The notes under the pieces were generated by a model, which did no database searches, was not told the origin of the DNA, and saw only the letters and a program-made list of their open reading frames with translations. Of a stretch of 64,000 nucleotides of DNA, positions 46,591 to 64,000 are shown piece after piece. How positions within the stretch are numbered: the stretch's first letter is position 1; the number at the start of each line of letters is the position of its first letter. The position numbers and the translations under genes were made by a program. The stretch spans positions 1-64,000 of the forward strand of contig NZ_LR732525.1 of the NCBI RefSeq assembly GCF_902506425.1. Reading direction: 5' to 3'. Source of the stretch: Novosphingobium sp. 9U (GTDB lineage: Bacteria; Pseudomonadota; Alphaproteobacteria; Sphingomonadales; Sphingomonadaceae).

Positions 46591-46645
46591 GGTTTGCAAG
46601 TTCGCGTTCTTCTTTTCCGCCGAACGGGCGAGGAAGGGCGCGGCC

Positions 46646-47452
46646 CTACAATCCCATTTCGCCCAGCGCGCCGCCGTCGACCTTGATGTCGCACCCACTG
46701 ATGTAGCTGGCCGCTGGCGAGCACAGGAAATCGGCGACCGAGGCGATCTCGTCGCCCAAGCCCATGCGTTGCAAGGGCACGCGTTGCATCATCGCGCGCA
46801 TCATCTCGCTGGCTTGTGCTTCGGCGCGGCTCATCGCGGTGTCGATGAAGCCCGGCGCGATCGAGACGATGCGGGCACCGCGCTGGCCGAAGCGGACGGA
46901 CTCCCTGGCGACCAGCTTCATCACGCCCAGCTTGGAGATCGGATAGGCGGCTTGCGGCGATTGCAGGTACGCGGCGACTGCCTCGCGCCCGCCGCCGTCG
47001 ACCATCGCCTTCACCGCTGCGATCATGTCCGGCGCCGGGATCATGTAGCCCGAGCTGGACGAGATCAGCACCGCGCAAGCTCCCTTCGCCATGCGTGGGG
47101 CGAGCGCATCGACGAGGCGCTCGGTGGCGAAGTAGTTCACCTCCAGCACGCGTTCGCCATCGGCCATCGTCGGCGAGAGACCGGCGGTGTGCACCACGGC
47201 GGCGATGTCCTGGTCACCGACGCGCTCGAGGAGCTTGGCAGGGAAGTCGGGCGCGGAGAGATCACCCGCCAGCGTGGAGACCGGCGCACCCGATGGGGCC
47301 AGTTCGGCCGCAAGCGCGTCCAGCCGCTCCGCCGAGATGTCGCACAGGATCAGCGGCTGCCCCCGCTTTGCGAACCGCACGGCGGCCGGCCGACCCATGC
47401 CACCTGCCGCGCCGGTGATGATGATGGCGCCTTGCGGCTGAATGTCGGTCAT
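46646..47452 (-). CDS. Short-chain dehydrogenase/reductase (SDR)
   Basis: A 268-residue SDR with TGAAGGMGRPAA near residue 14, Asp after the second strand (ILCDIS, NAD preference), the Ser region ISSSSGYM and an AYPISK active-site motif (YxxxK) near 178. The C-terminus (ISGCDIKVDGGALGEMG) is typical. An insertion of about 30 residues separates the Ser and Tyr motifs. The ATG at 47452 has GGAGAG upstream. It is convergent with the PQQ dehydrogenase, which might make or use the same alcohol, but no substrate is indicated. Confidence 0.9.
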   Translation of the reverse strand: MTDIQPQGAIIITGAAGGMGRPAAVRFAKRGQPLILCDISAERLDALAAELAPSGAPVSTLAGDLSAPDFPAKLLERVGDQDIAAVVHTAGLSPTMADGERVLEVNYFATERLVDALAPRMAKGACAVLISSSSGYMIPAPDMIAAVKAMVDGGGREAVAAYLQSPQAAYPISKLGVMKLVARESVRFGQRGARIVSIAPGFIDTAMSRAEAQASEMMRAMMQRVPLQRMGLGDEIASVADFLCSPAASYISGCDIKVDGGALGEMGL

Positions 47453-47628
47453 CTGGCTCTCCGCGCTATTTGCAACGGCTTGCCATGACGCAAGGCGGAG
47501 AGACAAGTGTCGTCCGAGGCTCGACACGGGGCGGTTGCAGTATCCCGCCAGCTATCGCGGAGGCGTTTGCCCTCGAGCGTCAGGCATGGTGCAATCGGTT
47601 CCGGATCGAGCCCGGAGCGACCGGCCAA

Positions 47629-48450
47629 TCAGAACGCAGGTTCGTACCCAGGAGGCAGGTCGTTGATGTCGCTGGTGCCGCCGGCGACATGGATGCCGCA
47701 CTCCACCTTGTCCCAACCCTTCCAGCGTCCCGAGCGCGGATCCTCTCCGGCAGCGACCTTGCTGGTGCAGGGCGAGCAACCGATCGAGGGATAGCCTTCG
47801 GCGACCAGCGGATGCGGCGGTAGATCGTGCTCGACCACATAGGCGGCAAGATCCTCGGCGGACCAGTCGATCAGCGGGTTGATCTTCAGCCTGCCTTGCG
47901 CGTCTGTGGTATCGATTTCGAACCGGGGCAGCGCGGCGCGGGTCGAGGCCTGGAACGCCTTGCGGCCGGTGATCGTCGCATCGTAGCCGGCCAGGGCCTT
48001 GGCGAGCGGCTTGACCTTGCGGATCTCGCAGCAGCCATCCGGATCGTAGGACCAGCGCAGGCCGGTCTCGTCGCGCTTCGCGAGGTCTTCGGCGTCGGGC
48101 GTCAGGTTGCGCACGTTGGTCAGGCCGAGCCGCGCGATCAGCTCGTCGCGATAGGCCAGCGTCTCCGCGAAGTGCTTGCCGGTGTCGAGAAACAGCACGG
48201 GCACGTTCGGATCGATCCGGCTGACAACGTGCAGCAGCACGGCGCTCTCGGCGCCGAAGCTGGACACGATCGCGACATCGCCCGCCATCTGCTCCTTGAG
48301 CAGCGTCTCCAGCATCTCGACCGTCTCGGTCCCGCGGAACAAGCGGTTCAGGCGAACGGCATCGGCTTCCTGGAACTTGGCCGAGGTGTCGATGCGGTCA
48401 CGGACGCGGTCGGGCTGGACGTCAGCCTGGATGTCGAGGGCGTTGAACAT
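47629..48450 (-). CDS. cysH: APS/PAPS reductase
   Basis: A 273-residue sulfate-assimilation enzyme that reduces APS (or PAPS) to sulfite. It has the SSFGAESAVLLH nucleotide loop near residue 62, a Cys-Cys pair in DGCCEIRK near 139, CxxC in GCSPCTS near 226 and the catalytic Cys in ECGIH near 250. The four cluster cysteines mark the [4Fe-4S] type that normally uses APS. The start is ATG 48450 (AGGG upstream); the frame is open to a GTG at 48477. It is the last gene of the operon, separated from DUF934 by a repeat-filled 274-bp gap. Confidence 0.95.
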   Translation of the reverse strand: MFNALDIQADVQPDRVRDRIDTSAKFQEADAVRLNRLFRGTETVEMLETLLKEQMAGDVAIVSSFGAESAVLLHVVSRIDPNVPVLFLDTGKHFAETLAYRDELIARLGLTNVRNLTPDAEDLAKRDETGLRWSYDPDGCCEIRKVKPLAKALAGYDATITGRKAFQASTRAALPRFEIDTTDAQGRLKINPLIDWSAEDLAAYVVEHDLPPHPLVAEGYPSIGCSPCTSKVAAGEDPRSGRWKGWDKVECGIHVAGGTSDINDLPPGYEPAF

Positions 48451-48573
48451 GGCGGTAATCCCTTGTGCCACGCTCACATGGGATTGGGGTGTCGCGGAGT
48501 CGACGAAGAAAAAGGACGAGGGGGTTTAGGGGAGTTTTCTGCGGTTTGGCGGTAGAGATTTGGCGATTGCCGA

Positions 48574-48714
48574 GATCCTCCCCTGCAAGGGGAGGGGGAC
48601 CGCCGCCGCAGGCGTTGGTGGAGGGCGGTAACCCTCTCGGTCGTGCACTCGACTAGCGATGACACCCCTCCGTCACGCACTGCGTGCGCGCCACCTCCCC
48701 TTGCAGGGAGGATC
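48574..48714. repeat. Dispersed palindromic repeat, copy 3
   Basis: About 140 bp from GATCCTCCCCTGCAAGG to AGGGAGGATC, with arms CCTGCAAGGGGAGG and CCTCCCCTTGCAGG. The left half differs from copy 2 in the middle (GGGACCGCCGCCGCAGG), whereas the right half is nearly the same. It lies inside the sulfate operon, between DUF934 and cysH. Confidence 0.8.
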
Positions 48715-48724
48715 AAGGGACAAC

Positions 48725-49156
48725 TCAACCCGCGTGGCGTTTGGCCCAGATCGGCTGGCGGCCGTCAGCCGTCGCCTGGTAGACGTTGTCCCAGCGGTCG
48801 AATGCGGCCTGTGCGTCCGCTTCGTTCAGCGGATGCTCGGGCGCGAAGGCGTCGAAGCCGCAGCGCTTCAGGTGGCTGAGCATGTCGATCACCACGTCGC
48901 CCACCGCGCGGATCTCACCGGTGAAGCCTGCCTCGCGCAGCACGCGCGCCGAGGAATAGCCGCGCCCGTCGGTCCAGGCGGGAAAGTTCACCTCGATCAG
49001 GCGCAGGCGGTCGAGGTGCGGCAGCAGTTCGCGCGCGTCGTCGCCCGGCTCCACGCGCACGGCGGTGGCGTTGGTCTGCTCGCCGAAGGAGTCCACGGTG
49101 ACAGCCGGATCGGACACCGGTTCATCGTTGCGGAACCGGAACTGGACGTCAGACAT
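48725..49156 (-). CDS. DUF934 protein of the sulfate-assimilation operon
   Basis: A 143-residue protein with the family core LDRLRLIEVNFPAWTDGRGY near residue 48 and SARVLREAGFTGEIRAVGDV. DUF934 proteins are encoded next to sulfite reductase in many proteobacteria and are thought to help it, but the activity is not established. It lies 50 bases after the sulfite reductase stop on the same strand. Confidence 0.93.
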   Translation of the reverse strand: MSDVQFRFRNDEPVSDPAVTVDSFGEQTNATAVRVEPGDDARELLPHLDRLRLIEVNFPAWTDGRGYSSARVLREAGFTGEIRAVGDVVIDMLSHLKRCGFDAFAPEHPLNEADAQAAFDRWDNVYQATADGRQPIWAKRHAG

Positions 49157-49206
49157 GATGAACGACCTTCAAAGTGCGAACAGGATCGGGCCACGCAGCC
49201 GCAAGC

Positions 49207-50835
<1,629 letters not shown>

Positions 50836-50836
50836 G

Positions 50837-51133
50837 TCAGATCACCCAGTTGAGGGCTGCCGGATCGGCGGGCTTGAGCGTCAGGTCGGGGCGCACCGTG
50901 GGGCCGAGCGCGCGAATGCGCTCCTTGATGTGCGCGGGGCGGACGCCCTCGGCGGTCTTCTCGCCATCGACGACGTAGGCGGCGAAGACGTTCTGGGCGC
51001 CTTCCTCGCGCGCGATCAGCTGCGCGCCCTGGTCGGCGACATCGACCGCATCGTCGACATGGAGCGACCAGCCCTGGCCGTCCCACCAGATGACGGCGCC
51101 GCTCTTCAGGTCGTTGCCGGTCAGGATCTTCAC
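50837..51133 (-). CDS. DUF2849 protein
   Basis: A 98-residue protein beginning VKILTGNDLKSGAVIWWDG, typical of DUF2849, a small family found between siroheme methyltransferase and sulfite reductase genes in alphaproteobacteria. Its role is unknown. The GTG start overlaps the stop of the methyltransferase gene (GTGA), so translation is coupled. Confidence 0.9.
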   Translation of the reverse strand: MKILTGNDLKSGAVIWWDGQGWSLHVDDAVDVADQGAQLIAREEGAQNVFAAYVVDGEKTAEGVRPAHIKERIRALGPTVRPDLTLKPADPAALNWVI

Positions 51134-51906
51134 TGTGCTGCCTCCAGCGCGACTGCGCGTAGGGTGGTGTCGGGCTCTGCAGTGACCTGGCCGATGACGA
51201 TCAGCGCCGGACTGCGGACGCGCTGCCCCTGCACCAGGTCGGGCAATCCCGCAAGCGGTCCGCGCAAAACGCGCATGTCGGAACGCGTGGCGTTCTCGAT
51301 CACCGCGACCGGCGTTTCGGGTGCGAGCCCGTCGGCCATCAGCTTCTCGGCAATGAGCGGAGCGGTGGCGACGCCCATGAAGATCACCAGCGTGCGGTCC
51401 TTGCCGGCCAGGCCAGCCCAGTCCTGCTCGGTCAGGCCCTTGCACTGGCCGGCGACGAAGGTGACGATCGAGGCGCTGTCGCGATGGGTGAGGGGAATCT
51501 GCGCGGATGCGGAGGCGCCCAGTGCGGAAGTGATTCCCGGCACGACCTGCACCGGCACGCCGGCGGCGCGGCAGGCCTCCGCCTCCTCGCCGCCGCGACC
51601 GAAGATGAAGGGGTCGCCGCCCTTGAGGCGCACGACGTCGTGACCGGCCAATGCCTCGCGCACGAGCAGGGCGTTGATCGCCTCCTGCTTCATGGTGTGA
51701 TTGGAGCGTGCCTTGGCGACCGAGACCAGGCGGGCGCCGGAGCGCGTCATCGCCATGATCTCGGGCGAGACCAGGCCATCGTGGACGATCAGCCCGGCCG
51801 ACATGATCAGCCGCGCCGCGCGCAGGGTCAGGAGATCGGGATCGCCCGGTCCGGCGCCGACCAGGTGGACGGTACCGATGCGGGACTCAGGGGAGAGGGC
51901 TTGCAT
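51130..51906 (-). CDS. cobA: Uroporphyrinogen-III C-methyltransferase
   Basis: A 258-residue SAM-dependent enzyme that makes precorrin-2, the first step to siroheme, the cofactor of the sulfite reductase downstream. Family motifs: VHLVGAGPGDPDLLTLRAAR near residue 14, VRLKGGDPFIFGRGGEE near 92, VVPGITSA near 118 and the RGPLAGL segment near 223. It is the single-domain form without the CysG oxidase/chelatase part, so those steps must be encoded elsewhere. It is the first gene of the sulfate operon. Confidence 0.95.
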   Translation of the reverse strand: MQALSPESRIGTVHLVGAGPGDPDLLTLRAARLIMSAGLIVHDGLVSPEIMAMTRSGARLVSVAKARSNHTMKQEAINALLVREALAGHDVVRLKGGDPFIFGRGGEEAEACRAAGVPVQVVPGITSALGASASAQIPLTHRDSASIVTFVAGQCKGLTEQDWAGLAGKDRTLVIFMGVATAPLIAEKLMADGLAPETPVAVIENATRSDMRVLRGPLAGLPDLVQGQRVRSPALIVIGQVTAEPDTTLRAVALEAAQ

Positions 51907-51988
51907 GGTGCGCCAAATGGCGGCGCGGGCTCGCCGAGGCCAGCCAGAATGGCTTAAGCGCTCGGTAGGTGGGCTTTATGCCGGTCAA

Positions 51989-52018
51989 CGTCGTCCCGGA
52001 TCGGACCCGGGGACGACG
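51989..52018. terminator. Hairpin downstream of infC
   Basis: Stem CGTCGTCCC (51989-51997) and GGGACGACG (52010-52018) with a 12-base loop, between infC and the methyltransferase gene. It belongs to the same dispersed GTCCCGGG palindrome family as 23507-23527, so it may be a repeat acting as a terminator. Confidence 0.5.
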
Positions 52019-52027
52019 CCGGCCTTC

Positions 52028-52570
52028 TTACTTCGGCGAAAGCACCATCAGCATCTGGCGGCCTTCCATACGCGGGTAGGCTTCGACCTTTGCCACTTCG
52101 GCGACGTCTGCCTGCACGCGGCGCAGCAGGTCCATGCCCAGCTGCTGGTGCGACAGCTCGCGACCACGGAAGCGCAGGGTGACCTTCACCTTGTCGCCAT
52201 CGTCGATGAAGCGGGCGACGTTGCGCATCTTCACGTCGTAATCGTGATCGTCGATGTTGGGACGCATCTTGATCTCTTTGATTTCCTGCGTCTTCTGCGA
52301 CTTGCGCGCCAGGTTGGCCTTCTTCTGCGCTTCGTAGCGGAACTTGCCGACGTCCAGGAACTTGCAGACCGGCGGGTCAGCGTTGGGGGAGACCTCCACC
52401 AGGTCTAGGCCGACTTCAGCGGCCTGCGCGATCGCCTCGCGCGTGTACATGACGCCCAGGTTCTCTCCGTTTTCGTCGATCACGCGGACTTTGTCTGACT
52501 GGATCAGATTGTTGTAGCGCGGTCCGCTCTTGACCGGTGGCGTCATCATGCGCCGGGGTGGGGGTGCTAT
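52028..52570 (-). CDS. infC: Translation initiation factor IF-3
   Basis: IF-3 binds the 30S subunit and checks the start codon. The conserved N-domain ([20 protein letters not shown]), [16 protein letters not shown] and the C-domain ([28 protein letters not shown]) are all present. The start is read as ATA at 52570: AGGAG (52578-52582) lies 7 bases before it and the product is then 180 residues, as in E. coli. The two ATGs at 52549 and 52546 have no ribosome site. E. coli infC uses a rare AUU start for self-regulation, and this ATA would serve the same purpose. A longer in-frame ORF to 52639 is unlikely. Confidence 0.93.
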
Positions 52571-52577
52571 ATGCGTT

Positions 52578-52582
52578 CTCCT
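52578..52582 (-). promoter_or_regulatory. Ribosome-binding site deciding the infC ATA start
   Basis: AGGAG on the minus strand, 7 bases before ATA (52570-52568). It is too far (28 bases) from the first downstream ATG to serve it. Confidence 0.65.
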
Positions 52583-52711
52583 GAGTCGTTCGTAGGTATG
52601 GCGATTATGCGCGGCCAATAATGCGAATCGGCCGCTCAAGCAAAGCGCGAAATGGCGCAGCTATCGCAGCGCCTGCATTTCGTCGGCTTTACTGACCCGG
52701 GATATGGGTAC

Positions 52712-53413
52712 TCACGCAGCCGCGCGCCAGAGGGGATACTGCAGCAAACGCCCGCGTGCCGGCAAGATCGCGTCGATCGCGCTGGCCGGCTGCATCGCCG
52801 CCAGGATCTCGGTGGAGGCCGCGTTCATGCCGCCCGTGAGCGCGCCGAATGCGGGCAGGATGATGCGCCTTTCGCTCGCCACCGCGCAGGCGCGCGCAAT
52901 GCGCCGACCACGTGCCGCGACCACCAGCTTGGGGTGGAAGTGCCCCGAGAGTTCGGGCGCAGTCTCGCCCGCGCGCGCCTTGTGGCGCAGGATCAGGCCG
53001 GCGACCGCAGCTTCGGCGACGACCTCACCGCCGGCATCCTTTTCCAGCGAGGGATCGTGGTTGCCGACGATCCACACCCACTCCACCGCGCGGGTGAGCG
53101 CCGCCAGCATGCCCGCTGCGTGAGGTTCAAGTCGGCCAACGCCGCTGTCGTCGTGAAAGTTGTCGCCCAGCGCGAAGACACGGCGCGCGCCGGTCTCGCG
53201 GATGGCGAGGGCCAGGCGTTCCAGGGTCTCCCGGCTGTCGTAAGGTGGCAGCATCTGGCCTGAACGGGCATAGAAGCTCGCCTTTTCGAGGTGCAGGTCG
53301 GCCACCAGCAGCGCCTGCTCGCGCGGCCAGTAGAGCGCACCGCCACCGCCGCGGCCGCTCGAGGTGGCGCCCACCAGGCGCAACTCCTCACCACAGAACG
53401 AAAAGGGAACCAT
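52712..53413 (-). CDS. pdeM: Ligase-associated DNA-damage phosphoesterase (PdeM-like)
   Basis: A 233-residue calcineurin-like metallophosphoesterase. Metal ligands are seen in order: VADLHLEKASF near residue 38, ALGDNFHD near 80, VGNHD near 115 and SGHFHPK near 155. This set and the length fit the ligase-associated PdeM family, which normally sits beside an ATP-dependent DNA ligase and an Lhr-type helicase; those genes are absent here. The ATG at 53413 (AAGGG upstream) starts at the usual N-terminus. It is divergent from hemF. Confidence 0.85.
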   Translation of the reverse strand: MVPFSFCGEELRLVGATSSGRGGGGALYWPREQALLVADLHLEKASFYARSGQMLPPYDSRETLERLALAIRETGARRVFALGDNFHDDSGVGRLEPHAAGMLAALTRAVEWVWIVGNHDPSLEKDAGGEVVAEAAVAGLILRHKARAGETAPELSGHFHPKLVVAARGRRIARACAVASERRIILPAFGALTGGMNAASTEILAAMQPASAIDAILPARGRLLQYPLWRAAA

Positions 53414-53457
53414 GTGCCGCCCTTGCCGCAAGCCCCGCGATTTGGCAAGCCGCCGAA

Positions 53458-54333
53458 ATGACAGATATTGCAACCGACTGGACACCGTTCACCCAACGCG
53501 CCCGCACCTGGTTCGAGCACTTGCGCGACGCGATTTGTGCCGAGTTCGAGGCTATCGAGCGCGAGATGGGCAGCCAGGCCGCCTTCGCCTACACGCCGTG
53601 GAAGCGGCAAGCCCTGGAAGGCGAGAGCGGCGACACCGGCGGTGGCACCCGCGCGGTGATGAAGGGCAAGGTGTTCGAGAAGGTCGGCGTCAACGTCTCG
53701 ACCGTCGCGGGCGGGCTGGCGAAGGACTTTGCCGGTACCATCAACGGTGCCAGTGCCGATAACAATGCCTTCACCGCCACCGGCATCAGCCTGGTCGCAC
53801 ACATGAGCAATCCGCATGTGCCCGCCGTGCACATGAACACGCGCTTTTTGACGACCACCAAGGCATGGTTCGGTGGCGGCGCCGACCTCAATCCGCCGCT
53901 GCCCTACGACGACGACACGGCCGAGTTCCACGCCGCGTTCAAGGCCGCGTGCGACGGCTTCGCGCCCGACGCCTACACACGCTACAAGGCGTGGGCGGAC
54001 GAGTACTTCTTCATCCCGCACCGCAACGTGCACCGCGGGGTCGGCGGCATCTTCTACGACCACCTCGAGTGCACCGACGAGCAGGTCTGGGAAGCGAACT
54101 TCGCCTTCACCAAGGCCGTGGGTGAGGCGTTCCTGTCCGTGTTTCCGCGGATCGTGCGGCGTCGCCTGGGCTTGCCCTGGAGCACGGCGGACAAAGCGCA
54201 GCAGCTGGAATGGCGCGGCCGTTATGCCGAGTTCAACCTGGTCTACGACCGGGGCACGCTGTTCGGCCTCAAGACCGGTGGCAACATCGATGCCATCCTG
54301 ATGAGCCTGCCGCCCGAAGCGACCTGGAGCTGA
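53458..54333 (+). CDS. hemF: Oxygen-dependent coproporphyrinogen III oxidase
   Basis: A 291-residue enzyme of heme synthesis that decarboxylates coproporphyrinogen III to protoporphyrinogen IX using O2. It has the family signature YEYFF-like segment (WADEYFFIPHRN), RGVGGIFYDHLE, FGGGADLNPPLPY and the C-terminal RYAEFNLVYDRGTLFGLKTG. The length is normal. The ATG at 53458 begins the conserved part; the frame is open further upstream, antisense to pdeM. It is divergent from pdeM with 44 bases between them. Confidence 0.96.
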   Translation: MTDIATDWTPFTQRARTWFEHLRDAICAEFEAIEREMGSQAAFAYTPWKRQALEGESGDTGGGTRAVMKGKVFEKVGVNVSTVAGGLAKDFAGTINGASADNNAFTATGISLVAHMSNPHVPAVHMNTRFLTTTKAWFGGGADLNPPLPYDDDTAEFHAAFKAACDGFAPDAYTRYKAWADEYFFIPHRNVHRGVGGIFYDHLECTDEQVWEANFAFTKAVGEAFLSVFPRIVRRRLGLPWSTADKAQQLEWRGRYAEFNLVYDRGTLFGLKTGGNIDAILMSLPPEATWS

Positions 54334-54435
54334 GGCGAGAGGCTTTCTGCGGTGCGACGCTCGGGCCTGCCGTGACATGGCACCGCACCTTTCCCCTTGC
54401 CGCGGCGGGGAAAATCGCCACATGGTCGGCCCGGA

Positions 54436-56547
54436 ATGCTCCGCCAATACGAACTCGTCGAACGCGTCCTAGAGTATGCGCCAGAGGCCGATGAGGCCTT
54501 GCTGAACCGCGCCTACGTCTACACCGTCCAGAAACACGGCAGCCAGAAGCGCGCCAGCGGCGACCCGTATTTCAGCCATCCGATCGAGGTGGCAGGCTTG
54601 ATGACCGAGCTCAAACTCGACCAGCAGACCATCATCACCGCGCTGCTGCACGACACGGTCGAGGATACGCTCGTCACCGTCGAGGAGATCGAGCAGAAGT
54701 TCGGGCCCGACGTCGCGCGCCTGGTCGACGGCGTCACCAAGCTCTCCAAGATCGAGGCCATGCCCGAGAACGAGCGGGCGGCGGAGAACCTGCGCAAGTT
54801 CCTGCTGGCGATGAGCGAGGACTTGCGCGTCCTCCTCGTCAAGCTGGCCGACCGGCTGCACAACATGCGCACGCTCCACTTCATCAAGAGCGAGGACAAG
54901 CGCCGGCGCATCGCGCGCGAGACCATGGATATCTACGCGCCGCTGGCCGAGCGCGTGGGCATGTACGAATACATGCGCGAGATGCAGCTCCTCGCCTTCG
55001 AGCAGCTGGAGCCCGAGGCTTACGCGATCATCACGGGCCGACTGGCGCAGATCCGCAATCAGGAAGGCGGGCAGGTCGACGCGATCGCCTTCGCCATCCG
55101 CCAGGCGCTCGCCGAAGCCGGCCTGGGCGTGGAGGTCGTCGGGCGCGAGAAGCACCCGTACTCGATCTGGCGCAAGATGAGCGAGCGCCACGTGACGTTC
55201 GAGCAGATCACCGACATCATGGCGTTCCGCGTCCTGGTCGAGCAGCCGGAGGATTGCTACCGCGCGCTCGGCGTGCTGCATCAGACCTGGCAGATGATCC
55301 CGGGGCGGTTCAAGGATTACATTTCGACGCCCAAGACCAACGGCTACAAGTCGTTGCACACCGCCCTGATCTATGAAAATTCGATGCGCATGGAGGTGCA
55401 GATCCGCACCCGCGACATGCACCGCACCAACGAATTCGGCCTGGCCGCGCATTGGGCCTACAAGCAGGGCGGCGGCAGACCCGGCAGCGGCGTCAAGCCA
55501 GACGGGCAAGTCGGCTGGCTGCGCGACCTGATCGAGATCGTCGATGCCAGCCACGATGCCGAGGAACTGCTCGAGCATACCAAGCTGGCGATCTACGCCG
55601 ATCGCATCTTCGCCTTCACACCCAAGGGCGCGCTGCACCAGCTGCCCAAGGGCTCGACCGCGGTGGACTTCGCTTATGCCGTCCACACCAACCTGGGCAA
55701 TGCGGCGGTCGGCGCCAAGATCAATGGTCGGTTGGTGCCGCTGCGCACCCGGCTGGTGAACGGCGACGTGGTGGAGATCGTCAAGAGCACGCAGACCGAG
55801 CCGCAGCTGGCCTGGCTGGGCTTCGTCGTCACCGGCAAGGCCCGCGCCGCCATCCGCCGGGCCGTGCGCGCCAAGGAGCGGCAGGAAATCGCCGCGATCG
55901 GCGCCAAGCTGTACGACGAGATCGCCTCGCGCCTCCCCGGCCGCATCGGCAAGAAGGCGACCACCGCCGCCGTCGGCCGCCTAGGCCTGCGCGACGAGGA
56001 AGAACTGATGTTCGCTATCGGCTCGGCCCGGCTCACCGACCGGCAGGTCATGGAAGCGATCGCGCCGGGCAGTACCGCCGAACTGCCCGAGGATGAGGAC
56101 TGGCCCGTCCAGGAGCAGGCGATCTCCATCAAGGGCCTGACGCCCGGCATGGGTTTCCACCTGGCCGAGTGTTGCCACCCGGTGCCCGGCGATCGCATCG
56201 TTGGCCTGAGGCGGCCCGACCAGAAGGTCGAAGTGCACACCATCGACTGTCTGACATTGGCCAGCGGAGTCGATGCCGACTGGCTCGACGTGTCCTGGGG
56301 CGAGCGGACCACCGGCGCGGTCGGGCGATTGCGGCTGGTGCTCTACAACCGGCCGGGCACATTGGCGGAGGTGACCGACATCTTCGCGCGAAATCGCGCT
56401 AACGTCGTCAACCTGCAGATGGTGCAGCGCGACGAGCCTTTCGGCACCTACGAGGTCGACATGGAAGTGACCGACCTCGCGCACCTGACGCGCATCGTCG
56501 GCTCACTGCGCGCGAGCGAAGCAGTGGCAGAAGCTCAGCGGGTCTGA
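54436..56547 (+). CDS. relA/spoT: Bifunctional (p)ppGpp synthetase/hydrolase
   Basis: A 703-residue RSH stringent-response enzyme. Domains in order: HD hydrolase (HPIEVAGLM, LLHDTVEDT near residue 73), synthetase (RFKDYISTPKTNGYKSLHT near 292), TGS (FAFTPKGALHQLPKGSTAVD), a helical/zinc-finger region with Cys-His (GFHLAECCHPVPGD), and a C-terminal ACT domain (GTLAEVTDIFARNRANVVN). The HD residues are intact, so both activities are likely. Alphaproteobacteria usually have one such gene. The start ATG at 54436 opens the typical N-terminus. It ends five bases from the stop of the convergent LysM gene. Confidence 0.96.
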   Translation: MLRQYELVERVLEYAPEADEALLNRAYVYTVQKHGSQKRASGDPYFSHPIEVAGLMTELKLDQQTIITALLHDTVEDTLVTVEEIEQKFGPDVARLVDGVTKLSKIEAMPENERAAENLRKFLLAMSEDLRVLLVKLADRLHNMRTLHFIKSEDKRRRIARETMDIYAPLAERVGMYEYMREMQLLAFEQLEPEAYAIITGRLAQIRNQEGGQVDAIAFAIRQALAEAGLGVEVVGREKHPYSIWRKMSERHVTFEQITDIMAFRVLVEQPEDCYRALGVLHQTWQMIPGRFKDYISTPKTNGYKSLHTALIYENSMRMEVQIRTRDMHRTNEFGLAAHWAYKQGGGRPGSGVKPDGQVGWLRDLIEIVDASHDAEELLEHTKLAIYADRIFAFTPKGALHQLPKGSTAVDFAYAVHTNLGNAAVGAKINGRLVPLRTRLVNGDVVEIVKSTQTEPQLAWLGFVVTGKARAAIRRAVRAKERQEIAAIGAKLYDEIASRLPGRIGKKATTAAVGRLGLRDEEELMFAIGSARLTDRQVMEAIAPGSTAELPEDEDWPVQEQAISIKGLTPGMGFHLAECCHPVPGDRIVGLRRPDQKVEVHTIDCLTLASGVDADWLDVSWGERTTGAVGRLRLVLYNRPGTLAEVTDIFARNRANVVNLQMVQRDEPFGTYEVDMEVTDLAHLTRIVGSLRASEAVAEAQRV

Positions 56548-56552
56548 GCCGG

Positions 56553-58223
56553 TCAGGATGCGTTGATCAGGATGTAATCCAAGCTCGGTTGCTCGCCCAC
56601 GCTGGTGCGTAGGGCGTCGAAGTCGGCGGGCGGCAGCGTCTGGCAACCCGCCGAGCCGGTGAAGCTGGTCCCGCCCTTGTGAATGTACATCGTCGTGCCG
56701 GCATTGCAGGGATCGGTCTTGTCGCCGCTGGTGGGCAGGTCCGGTGTGAACTTGCCGTCGTGGTTGCAGTCGCGGTCGACCACCTGGATGTCGCGCGCGC
56801 GCCAGATCGCGCCCAAGTGGGGGTGCTGCTCGGGCCGGAAATGGTAGACGCCGGCGCGCAGGCGGCCAAGATCGCAGCGGCCGTCCCGGTCGAAGTCGAC
56901 CGATGACCCGCGCGCCGCCCGCACATGTCCGAACGCATAGCAGCCGGCAGGCTCGGTGTTGCCGATGAAGCGTTTGACCGAGATCGAGGCGCCGGTCTTC
57001 CAGATCAGGATCATGGGGTCGTCGTACTTGCCCAGTTCCGCCTGGCTCCAATCGGTCGATCGGCGCAGCGAGACCAGGACTTTGCGTCCCCGCTCGAAGT
57101 CGGCGCGCGTCTCGTCGTCGCCGTAGTGTTCCAGCAGCGCGCTCACATCGGCATCGCTCATCCGCGACGCGATGCGGGCCAGGAACGCCTCCTGGCTTTC
57201 GCTGCTGGCGTCGACTTCGGGTGGCGGAGAGAGCACCGCAGCCGCGATCGTCTGCTTGACCAGCTCGGCCGAGAGCATCGCCTGCGCATCGTTGCGCTCA
57301 CTGCGAAAGCGCGCGGCGATGCCTTCCTGTACCTTCAGCGAGTTCTTGGCAAAGTGCACCAGCACGCCGTCCGTGTTGCGCCGGCCGCGCTCGAGATAGA
57401 TCGCGTCGATGAGGCGTGTCTCGAAGTCGGCGGCGCCGGGTTGCACCTCCAGGCCGGCGATCGCGTCGGCGACAATATCGGAGCCGCTGCCGTGCTGCAC
57501 CGCGGTCGACCAGACCACGTCGCGCAAGGTCGCCGACAGTTTGGTGACGTCCACGCCGGTCCGCTTCTGGATGCGCGCGCACTGCGGGGCATAGTGCGTG
57601 CGCTGGATGTAGGCGTGCTGCGCATCGCCGAAGCTGGCACCCAGCTCGCTGGCGCACAGCTTCCAGGCCGCGGTGAAATCGCTGTCACCCTGCTCCATGC
57701 GGGCGAAGCGGGCCGCATAGGGCGAGCCCTCCGCGGAGGCGAGGAACAGGCGCGGCTGATCCTTCTTGGAAGCGAGCTGGTACTGGCCATAGGACGCACC
57801 ACCGCTGTCGCCGCGGCCGGTCGAGACCGTGCCGGGTCCACGGTTGCCGCACTCGTACTTGGCGGAAAGCTGCCCCAGCTTGTGCCCCGGCGGCGGGACC
57901 GGACCGGCGGTCGGCGCGCTGCTGGGCACCACGATCGGTCGCCCGCCAATATCGCTGTCGAGCGGAGCGCCGCCATTGGCTTGCGCCAGCGTACGCGGAT
58001 CGACACGGGCGCGCGTGGCCACATGGGCCAGCGTGTCGCCTGCCTCGCCGACGCGGAAAGTGTCGCTGACGCGCATGACCTTCAGCGTCTGGCCCACCTT
58101 CAACCGGTTGGCATCGGGCAGGGCATTGAGCTCCTGCAGCGCCGCGACACTGGTTGCGAACGTGTGCGCAATGCCCGACAGCGTGTCCCCGCGCCGCACG
58201 GTGTAGGTCCGGTAAATGGCCAC
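56553..58223 (-). CDS. LysM protein with muramidase-like and YkuD-like regions
   Basis: A 556-residue protein starting at GTG, with AGGGGG eight bases upstream. Residues 3-100 hold two LysM peptidoglycan-binding repeats (YTVRRGDTLSGIAHTF; FRVGEAGDTLAHVATRA). Residues ~118-300 resemble a lysozyme-like region with Glu124 in KYECGNRGPG, SYGQYQLASK, AYIQRTHY and VVWSTAVQHG. The C-terminal part has IHKGG (His515) followed by SAGC (Cys527), like the His/Cys signature of L,D-transpeptidases, preceded by acidic DRDGRCD and DCNHDGK stretches that might bind calcium. No signal peptide is seen, so export is unclear. It is the last gene of the CHAT operon, 19 bases after it. Activity is inferred from motifs only. 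Confidence 0.75.
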   Translation of the reverse strand: MAIYRTYTVRRGDTLSGIAHTFATSVAALQELNALPDANRLKVGQTLKVMRVSDTFRVGEAGDTLAHVATRARVDPRTLAQANGGAPLDSDIGGRPIVVPSSAPTAGPVPPPGHKLGQLSAKYECGNRGPGTVSTGRGDSGGASYGQYQLASKKDQPRLFLASAEGSPYAARFARMEQGDSDFTAAWKLCASELGASFGDAQHAYIQRTHYAPQCARIQKRTGVDVTKLSATLRDVVWSTAVQHGSGSDIVADAIAGLEVQPGAADFETRLIDAIYLERGRRNTDGVLVHFAKNSLKVQEGIAARFRSERNDAQAMLSAELVKQTIAAAVLSPPPEVDASSESQEAFLARIASRMSDADVSALLEHYGDDETRADFERGRKVLVSLRRSTDWSQAELGKYDDPMILIWKTGASISVKRFIGNTEPAGCYAFGHVRAARGSSVDFDRDGRCDLGRLRAGVYHFRPEQHPHLGAIWRARDIQVVDRDCNHDGKFTPDLPTSGDKTDPCNAGTTMYIHKGGTSFTGSAGCQTLPPADFDALRTSVGEQPSLDYILINAS

Positions 58224-58242
58224 AAGTCTGTCCCCCTGTTGA

Positions 58243-61176
58243 TCAGTTTTCCTCGGCCGGATTAGGTACGGTGTTGGCCGCGGCATTCGTGGGCAGCGCG
58301 GCCGGCGGTGCGAAGCGGGCGGGATCGCTCCAGCCGCATGCGTCGTCGGGCGCGGCGATGCCGTCGGGCAGGATCGAGAGATATGCGGCGCGATTGCCCT
58401 CCGCCGGTAGCAGGGCAGGGCGCACGGCACCGCACGAGAGCGTGACGATCCGTGTGGCAGGTAGCTCGTTCGCCTCCAGCGCGAGCTGCACCTCGCTTGC
58501 CGCCAGCAGGCCGTCGCGCATCTGATCGTAGGGGGCCGCGCCCCGCGCGCTGTGGCCTTCGACCAGGACGCGCCAGTTGCCGGTCAGCTCGCCCGCAGCC
58601 GCCGCTTGCCGCACGGCGTAGGCAGCGTCGGCGACTTGCGCGAGTGCCGGAGCGGAAAGACGCGTCTCGCTCACCGCCCACTCGACTTGCGCCTGCGGGA
58701 TAGTCGTCAAATCGAACCGGACTTCCACTCTGGGCGGGGGCGATGGAGTAGTGGCCACTTCCCGCCACTCATGCGTATCCAGCGCCGGTCCGGCATCGGC
58801 GCGCTCCTTTGCGAACGCACGCGAGAGTCGCGTGAGGGCCTGCTGCTCGCGGTCCAGCGCACGGTCGAAGTTCCACAGCCGAACGCGTGCCACGAGCGGC
58901 TGCGTGCGGGTCGCCTCGGCCCAGCTCCGCGCGCGCCGAGAGAGCTCACGTTCGTTCGCGGTGCTATCATCCGCAGCGTTCCACTCGTCGGGCACGGGAG
59001 CTGCGCGAAGGGCGATGAAGCTGAGGACGTAGTCAGGCTGCAAGTCGGTATCGCCATCCAGCACCAGCTCTTCGATCCGTTCGGGCGGCAGCGCCTGGCT
59101 CGCCAGATCGAGCGCGGCGGCGTGGACCGCCAGGCGGTCGGTCGCATGATCGGCAATTGCCACGGCGCTCACTTCTTCAGCGAATCCAGAAGTAGCAGGC
59201 AGGATCGACACCATCGTGTTTGAAGGCGCGCGAGTGAACACCAAGGCGACGCCCCTGCGGCAGCGCTCCGCAATGCGTGTTGCTTCCACAAACGGAACGG
59301 CTTGCGTGGTACTGCGCATGCCGGGTTGGAGGAGGGGCGCGAACGTCCGCGCCGTCCAGCCGCAATCGCTCTTGGGCATGAGCACCAGCGATGATGGGCC
59401 GGCAACGACCATGCCGGCCATCTCGGGCTTGTCGATACCTTCGATCCTTCGTTCGCGCGTGAACGCCTCGTAGGGACTGGTGGGCACGGCAAGATGAGCA
59501 CCGGCATCTGATCCCGCGTCTTGATAGGGCGGCTCTGCGGCAGCCGGGTCGGGATCGGAAACCCCGCCGTCGGCATCCGCACCGTCGAACCCGTCATCCG
59601 GATCGAAAACGCCTGCCGGGGCGCGGTCCATGTCGTCACTGGAAGCATCCACGGCATCTGCCGCCGCCGCCGCTGCCGCGTCCGCCCAGATCGCAGCGTG
59701 TGGCTCATCACGCGATCCCCTGTGCGGGGACCGGTGATGCGCAATCGCGACGGCTTCCTCAGGTGCCTCGGCCGCATCCTGGCCGGACATCTGTGCAGAG
59801 GCATCGACCTGATCCGGCTCCATCTCTGCACTGGTATTCACTGCGACGACGGGCTCCAGCTTGCGTTCGGCAAACCAGATGGCGGCCGACACCACGGCCC
59901 CGAGCACGAGAGCCACGGCGGAGCCGATCACGAGGCCGCGCTTCAGGCCGGCGCTTTTGCCAGCCGGCTTCGTTTCGGACGCAGGGCGCGCCGGATCCGG
60001 CGCCACGGCCAGCGCGGGCGCAGGCGCGGCAGCGGCGATCGTCTGGATGCGGTCGGCCTCTTCCGGGGTCGAGCCTGCCAGCGAGGAGTACAGCGCTGGC
60101 GTCGCAAATTCGAACGACGCCGGGTCGCTCGCCAGCAGCAGGTTGCGCGCGCGGGCGACGGCCTTGCTCAGCGGCATGCGAGTGAAATCACGGTAGAAGC
60201 TGGTGGCGAAGTCCCGCGCCGCGACGTCGCTGATCGCCCGGCGCATGGCGATCACGAACGGCACGCCGATCTCCAGCACTTCCTGCGCCAAGCCGCCGAA
60301 GCGCGCCGCCTTGCCATCGACCGCGCCTTCGCAGGCGTTGAGGAAGACCAGCCAGGGGCGGTCGTTCTTGAGGATCGAGAACAGTCCTTGCGCGTCGACG
60401 TAGTCAGTCTCGTTGGGCGCATTCTCCTTGTGGAAGTGGAGGCGTCCGGTGTTCCCGTCGAAGCTGCCGTGGCCGATGTAGTGGATGACGTGCGGCTGTC
60501 CGTGCGCAACCCGCGCCGCGAAGTCACGGCGGGTCGCATGGCGCAGCGGCGGATCGAGCAGGTGCACCGTGTCGCTGCCCAGCGCGGCCAGTGCCTGGAG
60601 CACCTTGCCGACTTCCTCCTCGGTCTTGAGCGTGCCGGTGGGATCGGCGACGACCAGCAGCAGGCGGAGCGGCAGTTGTGCGGGAAGCGGCGGCGGGCGG
60701 TTCGGCTCGCGATAGCGTGACAGGCCGAACGCGTCGCTGGTCGCCAGGAACTCGGCCACGCCGGCATCGCTGGCGTAGAGCATCTCCCAGGGCAGCTCGG
60801 ACAACGGGCCGGCCTCGGTCACGTCCAGCCGCAGCCATGTGTGCGAGCCTTCCGCGCGTTCGCCCTTCAGCGTGTCGACAAGCTTCTCGACATAGTTGCG
60901 CCCATGCGTGCGGTCGGTCAGCAGCGTGGCGAGGAGCTGTTCGCCCAGGAACTGCCCGGCCTCGCGATCGGCCGCCGCATCGAGGATCGTCGTATTGTCC
61001 AGCGCGGTGGCTTCGCCGCGAACACGCCCGGGCGGCGTAGCGGCGCGGAAACGGCCGACGACATCGGGCGGCAGGACGGCCAGGTACTCCGGCTGATCCT
61101 CAAGGTTGTAGCGGATCTCCACCCGGCATAGCCCGCTCTCGTCGGGCGCACGGATCTTGACGTCCCAGACGCGCAT
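58243..61176 (-). CDS. CHAT-protease, transmembrane, OmpA-like protein
   Basis: A 977-residue protein. Residues ~150-380 form a CHAT caspase-like protease domain with the dyad His236 (YIGHGSF) and Cys282 (LNACEG). A transmembrane helix follows near residues 412-435 (LVIGSAVALVLGAVVSAAIW). Then come a Ser/Asp-rich segment, a domain of unknown type (~590-730), and a C-terminal part resembling OmpA-like peptidoglycan-binding domains (WRVLVEGHSARGAAPYDQMR near 870). The protease would be cytoplasmic and the C-terminus periplasmic, anchored to the wall. It lies 6 bases after the 261-aa gene and 19 bases before the LysM gene. Confidence 0.85.
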   Translation of the reverse strand: MRVWDVKIRAPDESGLCRVEIRYNLEDQPEYLAVLPPDVVGRFRAATPPGRVRGEATALDNTTILDAAADREAGQFLGEQLLATLLTDRTHGRNYVEKLVDTLKGERAEGSHTWLRLDVTEAGPLSELPWEMLYASDAGVAEFLATSDAFGLSRYREPNRPPPLPAQLPLRLLLVVADPTGTLKTEEEVGKVLQALAALGSDTVHLLDPPLRHATRRDFAARVAHGQPHVIHYIGHGSFDGNTGRLHFHKENAPNETDYVDAQGLFSILKNDRPWLVFLNACEGAVDGKAARFGGLAQEVLEIGVPFVIAMRRAISDVAARDFATSFYRDFTRMPLSKAVARARNLLLASDPASFEFATPALYSSLAGSTPEEADRIQTIAAAAPAPALAVAPDPARPASETKPAGKSAGLKRGLVIGSAVALVLGAVVSAAIWFAERKLEPVVAVNTSAEMEPDQVDASAQMSGQDAAEAPEEAVAIAHHRSPHRGSRDEPHAAIWADAAAAAAADAVDASSDDMDRAPAGVFDPDDGFDGADADGGVSDPDPAAAEPPYQDAGSDAGAHLAVPTSPYEAFTRERRIEGIDKPEMAGMVVAGPSSLVLMPKSDCGWTARTFAPLLQPGMRSTTQAVPFVEATRIAERCRRGVALVFTRAPSNTMVSILPATSGFAEEVSAVAIADHATDRLAVHAAALDLASQALPPERIEELVLDGDTDLQPDYVLSFIALRAAPVPDEWNAADDSTANERELSRRARSWAEATRTQPLVARVRLWNFDRALDREQQALTRLSRAFAKERADAGPALDTHEWREVATTPSPPPRVEVRFDLTTIPQAQVEWAVSETRLSAPALAQVADAAYAVRQAAAAGELTGNWRVLVEGHSARGAAPYDQMRDGLLAASEVQLALEANELPATRIVTLSCGAVRPALLPAEGNRAAYLSILPDGIAAPDDACGWSDPARFAPPAALPTNAAANTVPNPAEEN

Positions 61177-61182
61177 GGCCCG

Positions 61183-61968
61183 TCACGCGTCCGGCGGCGG
61201 TGGCAGCTCGAGGTCGGGCAGGGCCTTGATATACGCGCGCTGCCAGCCGCGCAGCTTGGCGCGAACATCTGGCGCCAGATCGTGCAGCGCGGCGAGGTCG
61301 AGGCTCACCTTCGAGCTGTTGGTGCGCAGCTTGGCGCGGTTCTTGGTCACTTTGAACAGCAGCACTTGCGTGACCACCGTCTTGGCTTCCAGCGCGAAGG
61401 CGATCAGCGAGACGAGAGGCGCGCCGCCGTCCTGCGGATCGACCACACCGATTTGAAAACGTGCGCTGCGCCCCTTGATCGACCGCTTGTTGAACAGCGT
61501 GATCCATGGGGAGTCGTCGCTGGCCGCCTTCAACGCGTCGAGCGTGGCGGTGATCGCGGCGAGCGCGGTGACCGCCGGGCCGAGCAGCACGGCGGCGATC
61601 GCGGCGATCTTTTCGTGCACCTCGAACCCGTCACCGGCCTCGGACACTTCCGACCAGCCGCCGTCCTGGACCAGCCAGCCGAGCGTCTTGAGCATGGTGA
61701 AGTACGCCGCGTACCAGCCGACGATGTCGTCCGGATCGGGCACCCGGCTGTCCGCCACCAACTGCGCCAGCAGCGCCGAATCCGCGATCGCGTCGCGCAG
61801 TTCGACATCGGTTCCGGCCAGGAACGCGAAGACGTCCTGGCCGATGACGGCGGCCTGATCGGTGCCGGCGGTGAACGGCGATGCCTCATCACCCTGCGCC
61901 TCTACCAGGGGCTCGGGCAGAACAATCTCGCTAATGATCTGGCGTGCTTGGATAATATCGACCGACAT
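61183..61968 (-). CDS. Unknown protein of the CHAT/caspase cluster
   Basis: A 261-residue protein of unrecognised family. It has no signal peptide. A helical N-terminal half includes a strongly hydrophobic stretch near residues 119-145 (IAAIAAVLLGPAVTALAAIT), followed by a beta-like second half (ARFQIGVVDPQDGG, TVVTQVLLFKV) and a proline-rich end. The hydrophobic helix and the size would suit a membrane-active effector or a cleavage substrate, but this is speculation. The ATG at 61968 follows AGGGGG eight bases upstream; a TTG at 61974 is less likely. It is the first gene of the minus-strand operon. Confidence 0.75.
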   Translation of the reverse strand: MSVDIIQARQIISEIVLPEPLVEAQGDEASPFTAGTDQAAVIGQDVFAFLAGTDVELRDAIADSALLAQLVADSRVPDPDDIVGWYAAYFTMLKTLGWLVQDGGWSEVSEAGDGFEVHEKIAAIAAVLLGPAVTALAAITATLDALKAASDDSPWITLFNKRSIKGRSARFQIGVVDPQDGGAPLVSLIAFALEAKTVVTQVLLFKVTKNRAKLRTNSSKVSLDLAALHDLAPDVRAKLRGWQRAYIKALPDLELPPPPDA

Positions 61969-61974
61969 AGGCAA

Positions 61975-62095
61975 TTCCCCCTTATTGCCATGGCATCAGT
62001 ATCGACAGACAATCTGACGCGTCTTTACTGTCGCTGCAAGTGGCTTTATTTGTGCATCAAGGGGATAGGCTCTCGCCAGGAGCAGGGGAATATGC
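61975..62095. promoter_or_regulatory. Shared divergent promoter region of the protease cluster
   Basis: Only 121 bases separate the 261-aa gene and the caspase gene, so both promoters must lie here. The middle is AT-richer than the flanking genes. Exact promoter boxes could not be assigned. Ribosome sites are visible at both edges: AGGGGG for the minus gene and AGGGGA (62084-62089) for the plus gene. Confidence 0.5.
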
Positions 62096-64000
62096 GTGGT
62101 TAACGCGTGCATAGCCATCGGCATAGAGCGGACCGGCGGCCCCGGACTTGGCAAGCTGCCAGGCGCAGTGAACGGCGCGCGGGCCATGGCGGCCTGGGCC
62201 AAGGCGGCCGGCTACCAGGTCGAGCTCGTCACCGATCGCGACGATGTGCCCGGCAGTGAGGGGAAGGACACGTTCACTCCGGTGGATGTCGGGCGCATCA
62301 AGGCCGCGCTGATGCGCCTCCTGCCCACGGCCAACGACGGCGTGGATCGAGGCGGGCCGGCCGAACCGCCGCAGCGGCTGCTGGTCTACTTCGCCGGCCA
62401 TGGCATGCAGTCTGCGGCCGATGGCGAAATGTGGCTGCTGTCCGACAGCTACAGCGACCAGCTGGCGATCGGTTTGGCCAAGCTGCAGGCGCTGCTGCAG
62501 ACCTACCTCACCGGTGAGAAGCCGGGCCAGATCGCGATCATCTCCGACGCTTGCCGCAGCCCGATGATCGCCACCTGGAACGTCAACATGACGCCGGTGC
62601 CGGTCGTGCCGCTCGGGCCCTACGATCCCAACAGCTTCGACCAGGTCGACATCGACCAGTTCCTGGCGGTGCCGCCGTTGAGCTCTGCCTTCATGGTGCG
62701 CGCCACGGCCGAGGCGCCGGCGCGCTGCATCTTCACCTCGGTGCTGCTGGAGGCCCTGCACGGCGCCGGCGAGTCCTGCTTCGAGGACGACCGCGTGACC
62801 AGCGACAGCATGGCGAAATACCTGAGGGAGACCGTCCCCAGCCGCGCTCGCCAGTTCGACGTCGACATGCGCCCGCGCGTCTACCCGTGCTGGATCGATC
62901 CCAACGATGTCTACGTCTCCCGCGAGCAACTTGCCAAGATGCAGTTGTCGCCTCTAGACCCTTGGCCGGGCACCGGCGCGACGAGCGGGCAAGGCTCCGA
63001 CGATGCGCAGTCCGAGGCACTGCTGAAGTCGTTCGGCGCGCCGAGCGGCCTGGTTCGCGGCGAGGACCGAGGTGCCAGCATCGGAGCGGACGCCGCGGCG
63101 TTCGAGTTCGATGCCGCCGAGCCGCCACCTGAGCCCGAACCGGAGCCGGCCCCGCCTTCTCCGATCATGACTGACAGCGAAATGGCGCAGATCGCCACTG
63201 AAGCGGACATGGCCGCCAAGACCGCCGAAGCGCGTGCGACCCGTGCCGCGGCCTTAGTGCAGGCGGCCACGCAGACCCAACGCGCAACGCATTATGAAAC
63301 GCAGTGCGGCCTCACCGTGACCGGCTTGCAAGTGACCGGCGTGGCCTGCGCGTCCGGCTACCGCTTCGAAGCGGACGGCCACTTTCCTGGCAGCTGGCGG
63401 GTGTCTGGACCCGACGGTCCGCTGCAGGACGGTCAGTCGGCCTGGGCGCTCGTACGCGTCCCCAGCGGCGACAGCGTGGCGACTTGCGTGCAGGCCGGCT
63501 CCATCACCAGTGTCTGCACAGCACCGGAAGGTGCGCTGGTCGCCAGCATGCGCCCGCTGTTCCTCGACCCGTCCAAGCTGCTGACCTCGGAAGATATCCA
63601 GGCGCATGAGCGGCTGGCCGTAAGCGACGCCGACGATGCTCTGCAATGGTTGGCGCAGCTGGAACAGGGCCAGGTGTTCGATCCGATGCTCGGAGTGCTC
63701 GCCGCCTACGTGTTCTACGGCGCCGGACAGCAGGAAATGGTCCGCAGGCTGGCGCATGTCTATGCCGCGCGTCTGGCGCCGCTGCCGTTCGACATCGCCT
63801 TGCTGTGCCACGCGCAAGCGACCTGTGGCTCCGACGGCACCCTGATGGCGCAGGTCTCGGCAGTACCGGCCCGCAAGCCACGTTCGCGCGAGCAGCGTCT
63901 GATGGCGGGCCTGTTCGCCGCAGCTCCGCAGACCGAGCTTCCGGTCGCCGGTCGCGTGCCCTTGCTGCGCCAGGGGTGGTTCCTGCTCGACCGTGCCTGT
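62096..64000 (+). CDS. Caspase-family (peptidase C14) protein, 5' part
   Basis: The frame is open from GTG 62096 to the end of the window (635 codons), so the gene is incomplete. Residues 1-260 are a caspase-like protease: ACIAIGIERTGGPGLGKLPG at the start, catalytic His102 in YFAGHGMQ and Cys153 in IISDACRS. A Pro/Glu-rich linker and an Ala-rich helix (~360-400) follow, then a Cys-containing domain (TVTGLQVTGVACASGY, and CVQAG...SVC) of unknown type. AGGGGA lies six bases before the GTG. It is divergent from the CHAT operon. The total length and C-terminal partner domain are unknown. Confidence 0.82.
   Translation, partial: MVNACIAIGIERTGGPGLGKLPGAVNGARAMAAWAKAAGYQVELVTDRDDVPGSEGKDTFTPVDVGRIKAALMRLLPTANDGVDRGGPAEPPQRLLVYFAGHGMQSAADGEMWLLSDSYSDQLAIGLAKLQALLQTYLTGEKPGQIAIISDACRSPMIATWNVNMTPVPVVPLGPYDPNSFDQVDIDQFLAVPPLSSAFMVRATAEAPARCIFTSVLLEALHGAGESCFEDDRVTSDSMAKYLRETVPSRARQFDVDMRPRVYPCWIDPNDVYVSREQLAKMQLSPLDPWPGTGATSGQGSDDAQSEALLKSFGAPSGLVRGEDRGASIGADAAAFEFDAAEPPPEPEPEPAPPSPIMTDSEMAQIATEADMAAKTAEARATRAAALVQAATQTQRATHYETQCGLTVTGLQVTGVACASGYRFEADGHFPGSWRVSGPDGPLQDGQSAWALVRVPSGDSVATCVQAGSITSVCTAPEGALVASMRPLFLDPSKLLTSEDIQAHERLAVSDADDALQWLAQLEQGQVFDPMLGVLAAYVFYGAGQQEMVRRLAHVYAARLAPLPFDIALLCHAQATCGSDGTLMAQVSAVPARKPRSREQRLMAGLFAAAPQTELPVAGRVPLLRQGWFLLDRAC

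Follow-up and report, generated by a model that had tools for sequence, protein, structure and literature searches.

A predicted Cyt-fold protein beside caspase-like and CHAT protease genes in Novosphingobium sp. 9U: a candidate protease-controlled self-lysis module

Introduction

What might a bacterium gain from keeping two proteases, a peptidoglycan hydrolase and a small protein of no catalogued family side by side in its genome? The question is raised by a four-gene cluster at the end of the stretch analysed here (the window), which covers positions 1-64,000 of contig C57 (84,370 bases) of Novosphingobium sp. 9U (genome 4.64 Mb). A sequence-only reading of this stretch had proposed an envelope-spanning lysis or defence system in which proteases act on an effector, and had left the 261-aa protein as an unknown. 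Our analysis supports such a protease-plus-effector system, and confirms that the 261-aa protein matches no Pfam or NCBIfam family; it is, however, predicted to be a Cyt-fold, candidate pore-forming protein (a possibility missed by that reading), and we consider that the cluster is probably a protease-controlled self-lysis module. Its parts are:

56553..58223, minus strand: LysM and VgrG3-like muramidase, 556 aa (PF01476, PF21277; GTG start with ribosome site)
58243..61176, minus strand: CHAT protease, 977 aa, His236/Cys282 (PF12770)
61183..61968, minus strand: Cyt-like protein, 261 aa, candidate protease-activated pore-former (AlphaFold2 model, structural matches, sequence profile)
61969..62095, no strand: divergent intergenic region between the Cyt-like operon and the caspase gene, 127 bases, candidate promoter region from its coordinates
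62096..64120 (window part to 64000), plus strand: caspase-like protease, 674 aa, His102/Cys153 (Pfam C14, aligned relatives)

The spacings of 6 bases (Cyt-like/CHAT) and 19 bases (CHAT/muramidase) are as first read, while the divergent gap between the Cyt-like and caspase genes measures 127 bases from the ATG at 61968 (which has a ribosome site ahead of it) and would come to the 121 previously given only if the TTG at 61974 were the start. Extension of the sequence past 64000 places the end of the caspase gene at 64120.

Results

The AlphaFold2 model of the 261-aa protein is alpha/beta and displays the Cyt fold (two helical hairpins flanking a mixed beta sheet), in which the order of strands and helices, together with a hydrophobic helical stretch, matches the pore-forming Cyt1Aa as described in PMC7052140. 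Besides this stretch, the hydropathy scan, the model and the alignment reveal an N-terminal extension ahead of the conserved core, and a poorly conserved N-terminal linker spans approximately residues 15-36. At the level of sequence profiles, Cyt1Aa was matched by profile A5 of the Cyt-like family (E 0.0037/0.0038) and not by profile A1, and PF01338 matched four of 36 family members (best 4.8e-5), the window protein not among them; as a detector of the family PF01338 fails, recovering none of the examined loci. No gasdermin chain stands among the 50 structural matches listed for the model, which excludes nothing. A phage origin was rejected on finding no match in 50,697 phage records, and a scan of IMG/VR viral contigs returned 16 pattern matches, none of them confirmed. 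Likewise set aside was an identity with EACC1 or another described constant component, there being no match in the Pfam and NCBIfam libraries (which were not checked for the presence of an EACC1 model).

The genomic context of the family was surveyed in loci found by the Cyt-like protein only (22 from named genomes, four from plasmids and the fusion L051, plus the window), and clustering at 70% identity across the Cyt-like stretch gave 17 groups, with L038, L051 and the window standing outside the clustering; the window protein is 32-45% identical to the 25 clustered homologues. More distant homologues (four genomes of one genus; G057, G059, L055 and L056; distant plasmid homologues) were left out of the groups, and the neighbour scan of these loci (excluding L052, L053, L054 and L056) found that the two scanned neighbours of L055 are not proteases and that L065 has a trypsin-like gene. 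In 15 of the 17 groups (window included) a protease is fused to the Cyt-like protein or encoded within two genes of it; the common unit is a Cyt-like protein plus some protease. The neighbour belongs to the caspase family in L021, L024/L040, L027 and L035 (Pfam alone misses L021, L027 and L035), is a trypsin in L022/L023, L025 and L047-L049, a CHAT protease in L029, L050 and the Nitrospira group (L030-L034/L037), a subtilase in L036/L039, a subtilase and a trypsin in L020, and a trypsin with NucA in L038; in L051 the caspase is fused. Among the Nitrospira loci, the CHAT neighbour is shorter in L031 and is replaced by a TIR protein in L033. Two groups are devoid of a nearby protease, L026 and the Desulfobacterales pair L019/L028; in this pair a TIR protein lies upstream in L019, with nothing similar in the 86% identical L028.

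As a control, among the 75 genes at most 2 kb from the Cyt-like gene we counted seven CHAT, five trypsin and four caspase-family genes, as against two CHAT (both in L039), two trypsin and no caspase-family genes among the 84 genes at least 5 kb away (16/75 vs 4/84, Fisher p 0.0018, a generous value since near-duplicate loci inflate the near counts). CHAT and trypsin alone give 12/75 vs 4/84 (p 0.032). Genes were called by our own script (the L040 caspase is missed from the near set), and the Pfam tallies list the first 25 of 109 and of 128 families, so that single distal matches can be hidden. The divergent arrangement of caspase and Cyt-like genes is found, besides the window, in betaproteobacteria and actinobacteria (L021, L024, L040 and L027), and in L035 the caspase lies downstream on the same strand. 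The exact four-gene set recurs in none of the examined loci, as trypsin, subtilase, amidase or glucosaminidase replace CHAT and muramidase. Measured against the refuting condition named in the sequence-only reading (independent occurrence of the families), its four-part sensor-protease-effector chain is weakened and the caspase/Cyt-like pair strengthened.

Several of the distant homologues merit mention in their own right. A more distant Cyt-like homologue is carried in similar surroundings by four sampled genomes of one genus, from which three loci were fetched (L052-L054). Four Sinorhizobium plasmids (L062-L065) hold a distant Cyt-like gene with another gene of related appearance behind it, the third position being taken by a small trypsin-like gene in L065 and by an annotated insertion-sequence gene in L063 and L064. 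Two tandem Cyt-like genes are present in a genome of the window's family (L056:6656-8300).

Wall enzymes of five Pfam families adjoin or are fused to the Cyt-like protein in 5 of the 17 groups (VgrG3-like muramidase in the window, glucosaminidase in L036/L039, Amidase_2 in L026, Amidase_3 and M15 in the Sinorhizobium plasmids, M15 in L051). L051, from a genome of the window's class, joins a GDSL lipase, a caspase, an M15 peptidase and the Cyt-like domain in one 1128-aa polypeptide, whose N-terminal and M15 parts have their homologues in the Sinorhizobium hydrolase, where an amidase separates them. In L026 (8351-9979) the gene directly upstream of the Cyt-like gene encodes an MBL-fold protein whose similarity to the anti-phage 6A-MBL and Avs1a proteins stays below the cut-off, and the Amidase_2 gene lies downstream. 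In Bradyrhizobium sp. BTAi1 (L020:9968-12796) the Cyt-like domain is fused to approximately 680 residues that have no Pfam match. A search of solved structures with this fusion and with the 705-aa neighbour in L026 yielded chance-level matches only, and the lysozyme-like character that we presume for the fusion part from its motifs is not counted as evidence.

The muramidase of the window, first read as LysM/muramidase-like, bears out that description with LysM (PF01476, 2.6e-17) and VgrG3-like (PF21277, 3.7e-45) domains, and its closest solved relatives are the VgrG chains 4noo (2e-23) and 4nso (5.4e-23). Glu124 and Asp139 (15 residues apart) are identical in both chains, and we take them to be the catalytic residues of VgrG3. 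Its start is most likely the GTG at 58223, behind a G-rich ribosome site (AGGGGG); LysM follows directly, and in the hydropathy scan a signal-like segment is absent. A C-terminal HxG...SxGC motif, shared with L020, L022 and L039, has a putative resemblance to L,D-transpeptidases.

The caspase assignment holds as well, as the part of the protein inside the window passes the Pfam C14 cut-off (2.0e-4; 21.5 bits vs 21.4) and matches Raptor_N (1.6e-4), and the His102/Cys153 dyad is kept in all 15 aligned proteins, which have a C-terminal region of approximately 270 residues in common. A search of solved structures gave no match for it, and against NF047832 (the EACC1-associated caspase type) it scores 26.5 bits, below the cut-off of 140. 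Among approximately 8,000 scored candidates each from a large protein database the caspase had 10 matches and the CHAT protein seven (query included in each case). For four of the nine caspase relatives the longest contig is exactly the size of that of a Cyt-like match (4576, 7873, 157005 and 23115), which suggests that the two lie on the same contigs; none of the six CHAT relatives shares such a size among the 120 of 165 Cyt-like matches listed.

The CHAT domain (PF12770, 2.3e-26; dyad His236/Cys282) and the transmembrane helix previously assigned to the second protease are upheld, the latter by a single hydrophobic stretch (residues 415-433, hydropathy scan), while the OmpA-like tail and its anchoring to the wall are weakly supported (Pal chains at E ~1, residues 866-925). 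With only one such stretch, a membrane should separate the CHAT domain from the weakly Pal-like tail. The same genome holds a second CHAT locus (L005, contig C62, 16001-36000; CHAT match obtained by search), where by reading of open reading frames the CHAT protein carries a lipase-like part and its neighbours include a MoxR-like ATPase, a membrane protein, a trypsin-like protein and an amidase-like one that bears a peptidoglycan-binding repeat; a third CHAT match (9.1e-7) falls in an 854-aa frame (L006, contig C29, 9001-28000).

Together the four genes form a single accessory block, the site of which is closed in relatives. The block lies between a presumed rel-like gene (ending at 56547) and a presumed peptidyl-prolyl-isomerase-like gene (65023-66279). 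In six of 12 same-genus genomes drawn, the matches to these flanks are 326-676 bases apart, and in a seventh 2,616 bases, against 8,481 in the window genome (in four they fall on different contigs, and in one the isomerase match is absent). No mobility gene was seen inside the block, and marks of recent insertion were not found (G+C flat over 48000-64000; no tRNA within 45000-64000).

Discussion

The four genes look like a self-destruct kit with the layout of the bacterial gasdermin systems and a different pore protein. In such a module the Cyt-fold protein would be kept inactive in the cytoplasm until a signal, perceived perhaps at the envelope by the membrane-spanning CHAT protein or perhaps internally by way of the caspase's C-terminal region, activates the proteases. 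These would then cleave the Cyt-like protein, the N-terminal linker (~residues 15-36) being the most likely site, by analogy with the activation of Cyt protoxins through propeptide removal, and the freed protein would insert into the inner membrane from inside. The LysM-muramidase would pass the breached membrane and cut peptidoglycan until the cell bursts, the Cyt-like protein acting as holin and the muramidase as endolysin. The purpose is likely to be altruistic death upon phage or plasmid attack.

A less probable alternative is that the Cyt-like protein acts intracellularly and forms no pore (as a lipid binder, membrane dock or adaptor; Evf, which carries palmitate, would be a parallel), the proteases regulating it or being recruited by it. 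Against this, both the element order and the hydrophobic helical stretch follow those of a pore-former (PMC7052140), and a breach of the membrane is the best explanation for the coupling to wall hydrolases that have no signal-like segments. The missing signal-like segment argues also against a toxin set that is secreted or injected into other bacteria or eukaryotes, in the manner of Bacillus thuringiensis Cyt, Evf and VgrG3. We hold this to be improbable, even though Cyt and Evf proteins are described as killing insects or serving virulence (PMC5390079) and the muramidase domain has a relative in VgrG: in distant bacteria the neighbouring genes encode caspase, CHAT, TIR and nuclease domains, and delivery by a type VI secretion system was rejected since PF05936 (one marker family, detected in E. 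coli out of 14 control genomes) is missing from the Novosphingobium genome.

The muramidase is no regular partner and the CHAT relatives share no longest-contig size with the Cyt-like matches listed, as would be expected if four accessory genes of separate functions had merely landed at one site. Such a chance assemblage is nevertheless highly improbable, given the 6- and 19-base spacings, the divergent caspase/Cyt-like pair in other lineages, the L051 fusion, the enrichment of proteases over distal genes and the contig sizes shared by caspase relatives and Cyt-like matches. Self-lysis under protease control remains the reading that we favour.

Close counterparts are the bacterial gasdermins, where, according to PMC9612521 (which itself draws the holin-endolysin comparison), a small pore-former likewise lies beside caspase-like or other proteases, with lysozymes and amidases sometimes near. 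Adjacent proteases are found here too (CHAT 6 bases away, caspase divergent), but the small protein matches the Cyt fold; S8 or CHAT partners are reported for fungal gasdermins (PMC12881547). With the Cyt superfamily (Cyt1, Cyt2, volvatoxin A2, Evf and Dickeya CytC) it has in common the predicted fold, element order, hydrophobic helical stretch and N-terminal extension; however, it goes undetected by Pfam's model and its gene sits with protease genes, whereas the known members are described as toxins or virulence factors directed at other organisms (PMC5390079). In caspase-nuclease (canu) and Hachiman/AVAST systems a caspase or trypsin stands beside a cleavage-activated effector, and trypsin- and caspase-gated nucleases act in phage defence (PMC12799240); there the effector is a nuclease, while here the candidate is the Cyt-like protein. 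The NucA-trypsin and EACC1-caspase conflict systems couple peptidases to variable effectors, some acting on peptidoglycan, and EACC1 is a single-transmembrane domain with short extensions (both from PMC7159879), in contrast to our 261-aa alpha/beta protein; a NucA+trypsin protein does adjoin the Cyt-like gene in L038. CARD-NLR and LypABC also represent protease-controlled bacterial self-lysis, in which gasdermins can be replaced by other effectors, phospholipases and endonucleases being named in PMC13236601, but the present cluster has no NLR-like gene. What sets the cluster apart from described protease-gated lysis systems is the small Cyt-like protein.

In agreement with the sequence-only reading, no described system of this exact make-up was found, and among the titles and opening abstract lines listed by a literature search whose scope excluded preprints and most subscription papers, none connects a Cyt-like protein with proteases of bacteria or with their defence. 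Phage holin-endolysin cassettes also pair a membrane breacher with a wall hydrolase that has no signal peptide; the differences are that control here would lie with proteases and that the Cyt-like protein has no counterpart in the phage records searched.

We regard as evenly balanced the broader proposition that these loci typify a second class of death systems, triggered by proteases and independent of gasdermins, in several bacterial phyla, with a cytoplasmic Cyt-fold pore-former as executioner and at times signal-less peptidoglycan hydrolases, forming a host-encoded holin-endolysin device. With four genes that include a candidate pore protein, a muramidase and two proteases with one active-site cysteine each, the cluster offers a compact, directly testable unit. 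If the proposition is true, the principle of pyroptosis, in which a protease releases a pore-former, would exist in bacteria too with a pore protein that has another fold, Cyt-type cytolysins would acquire a role within bacterial cells, and Cyt toxins and Evf may have a common ancestor with the self-death proteins of bacteria.

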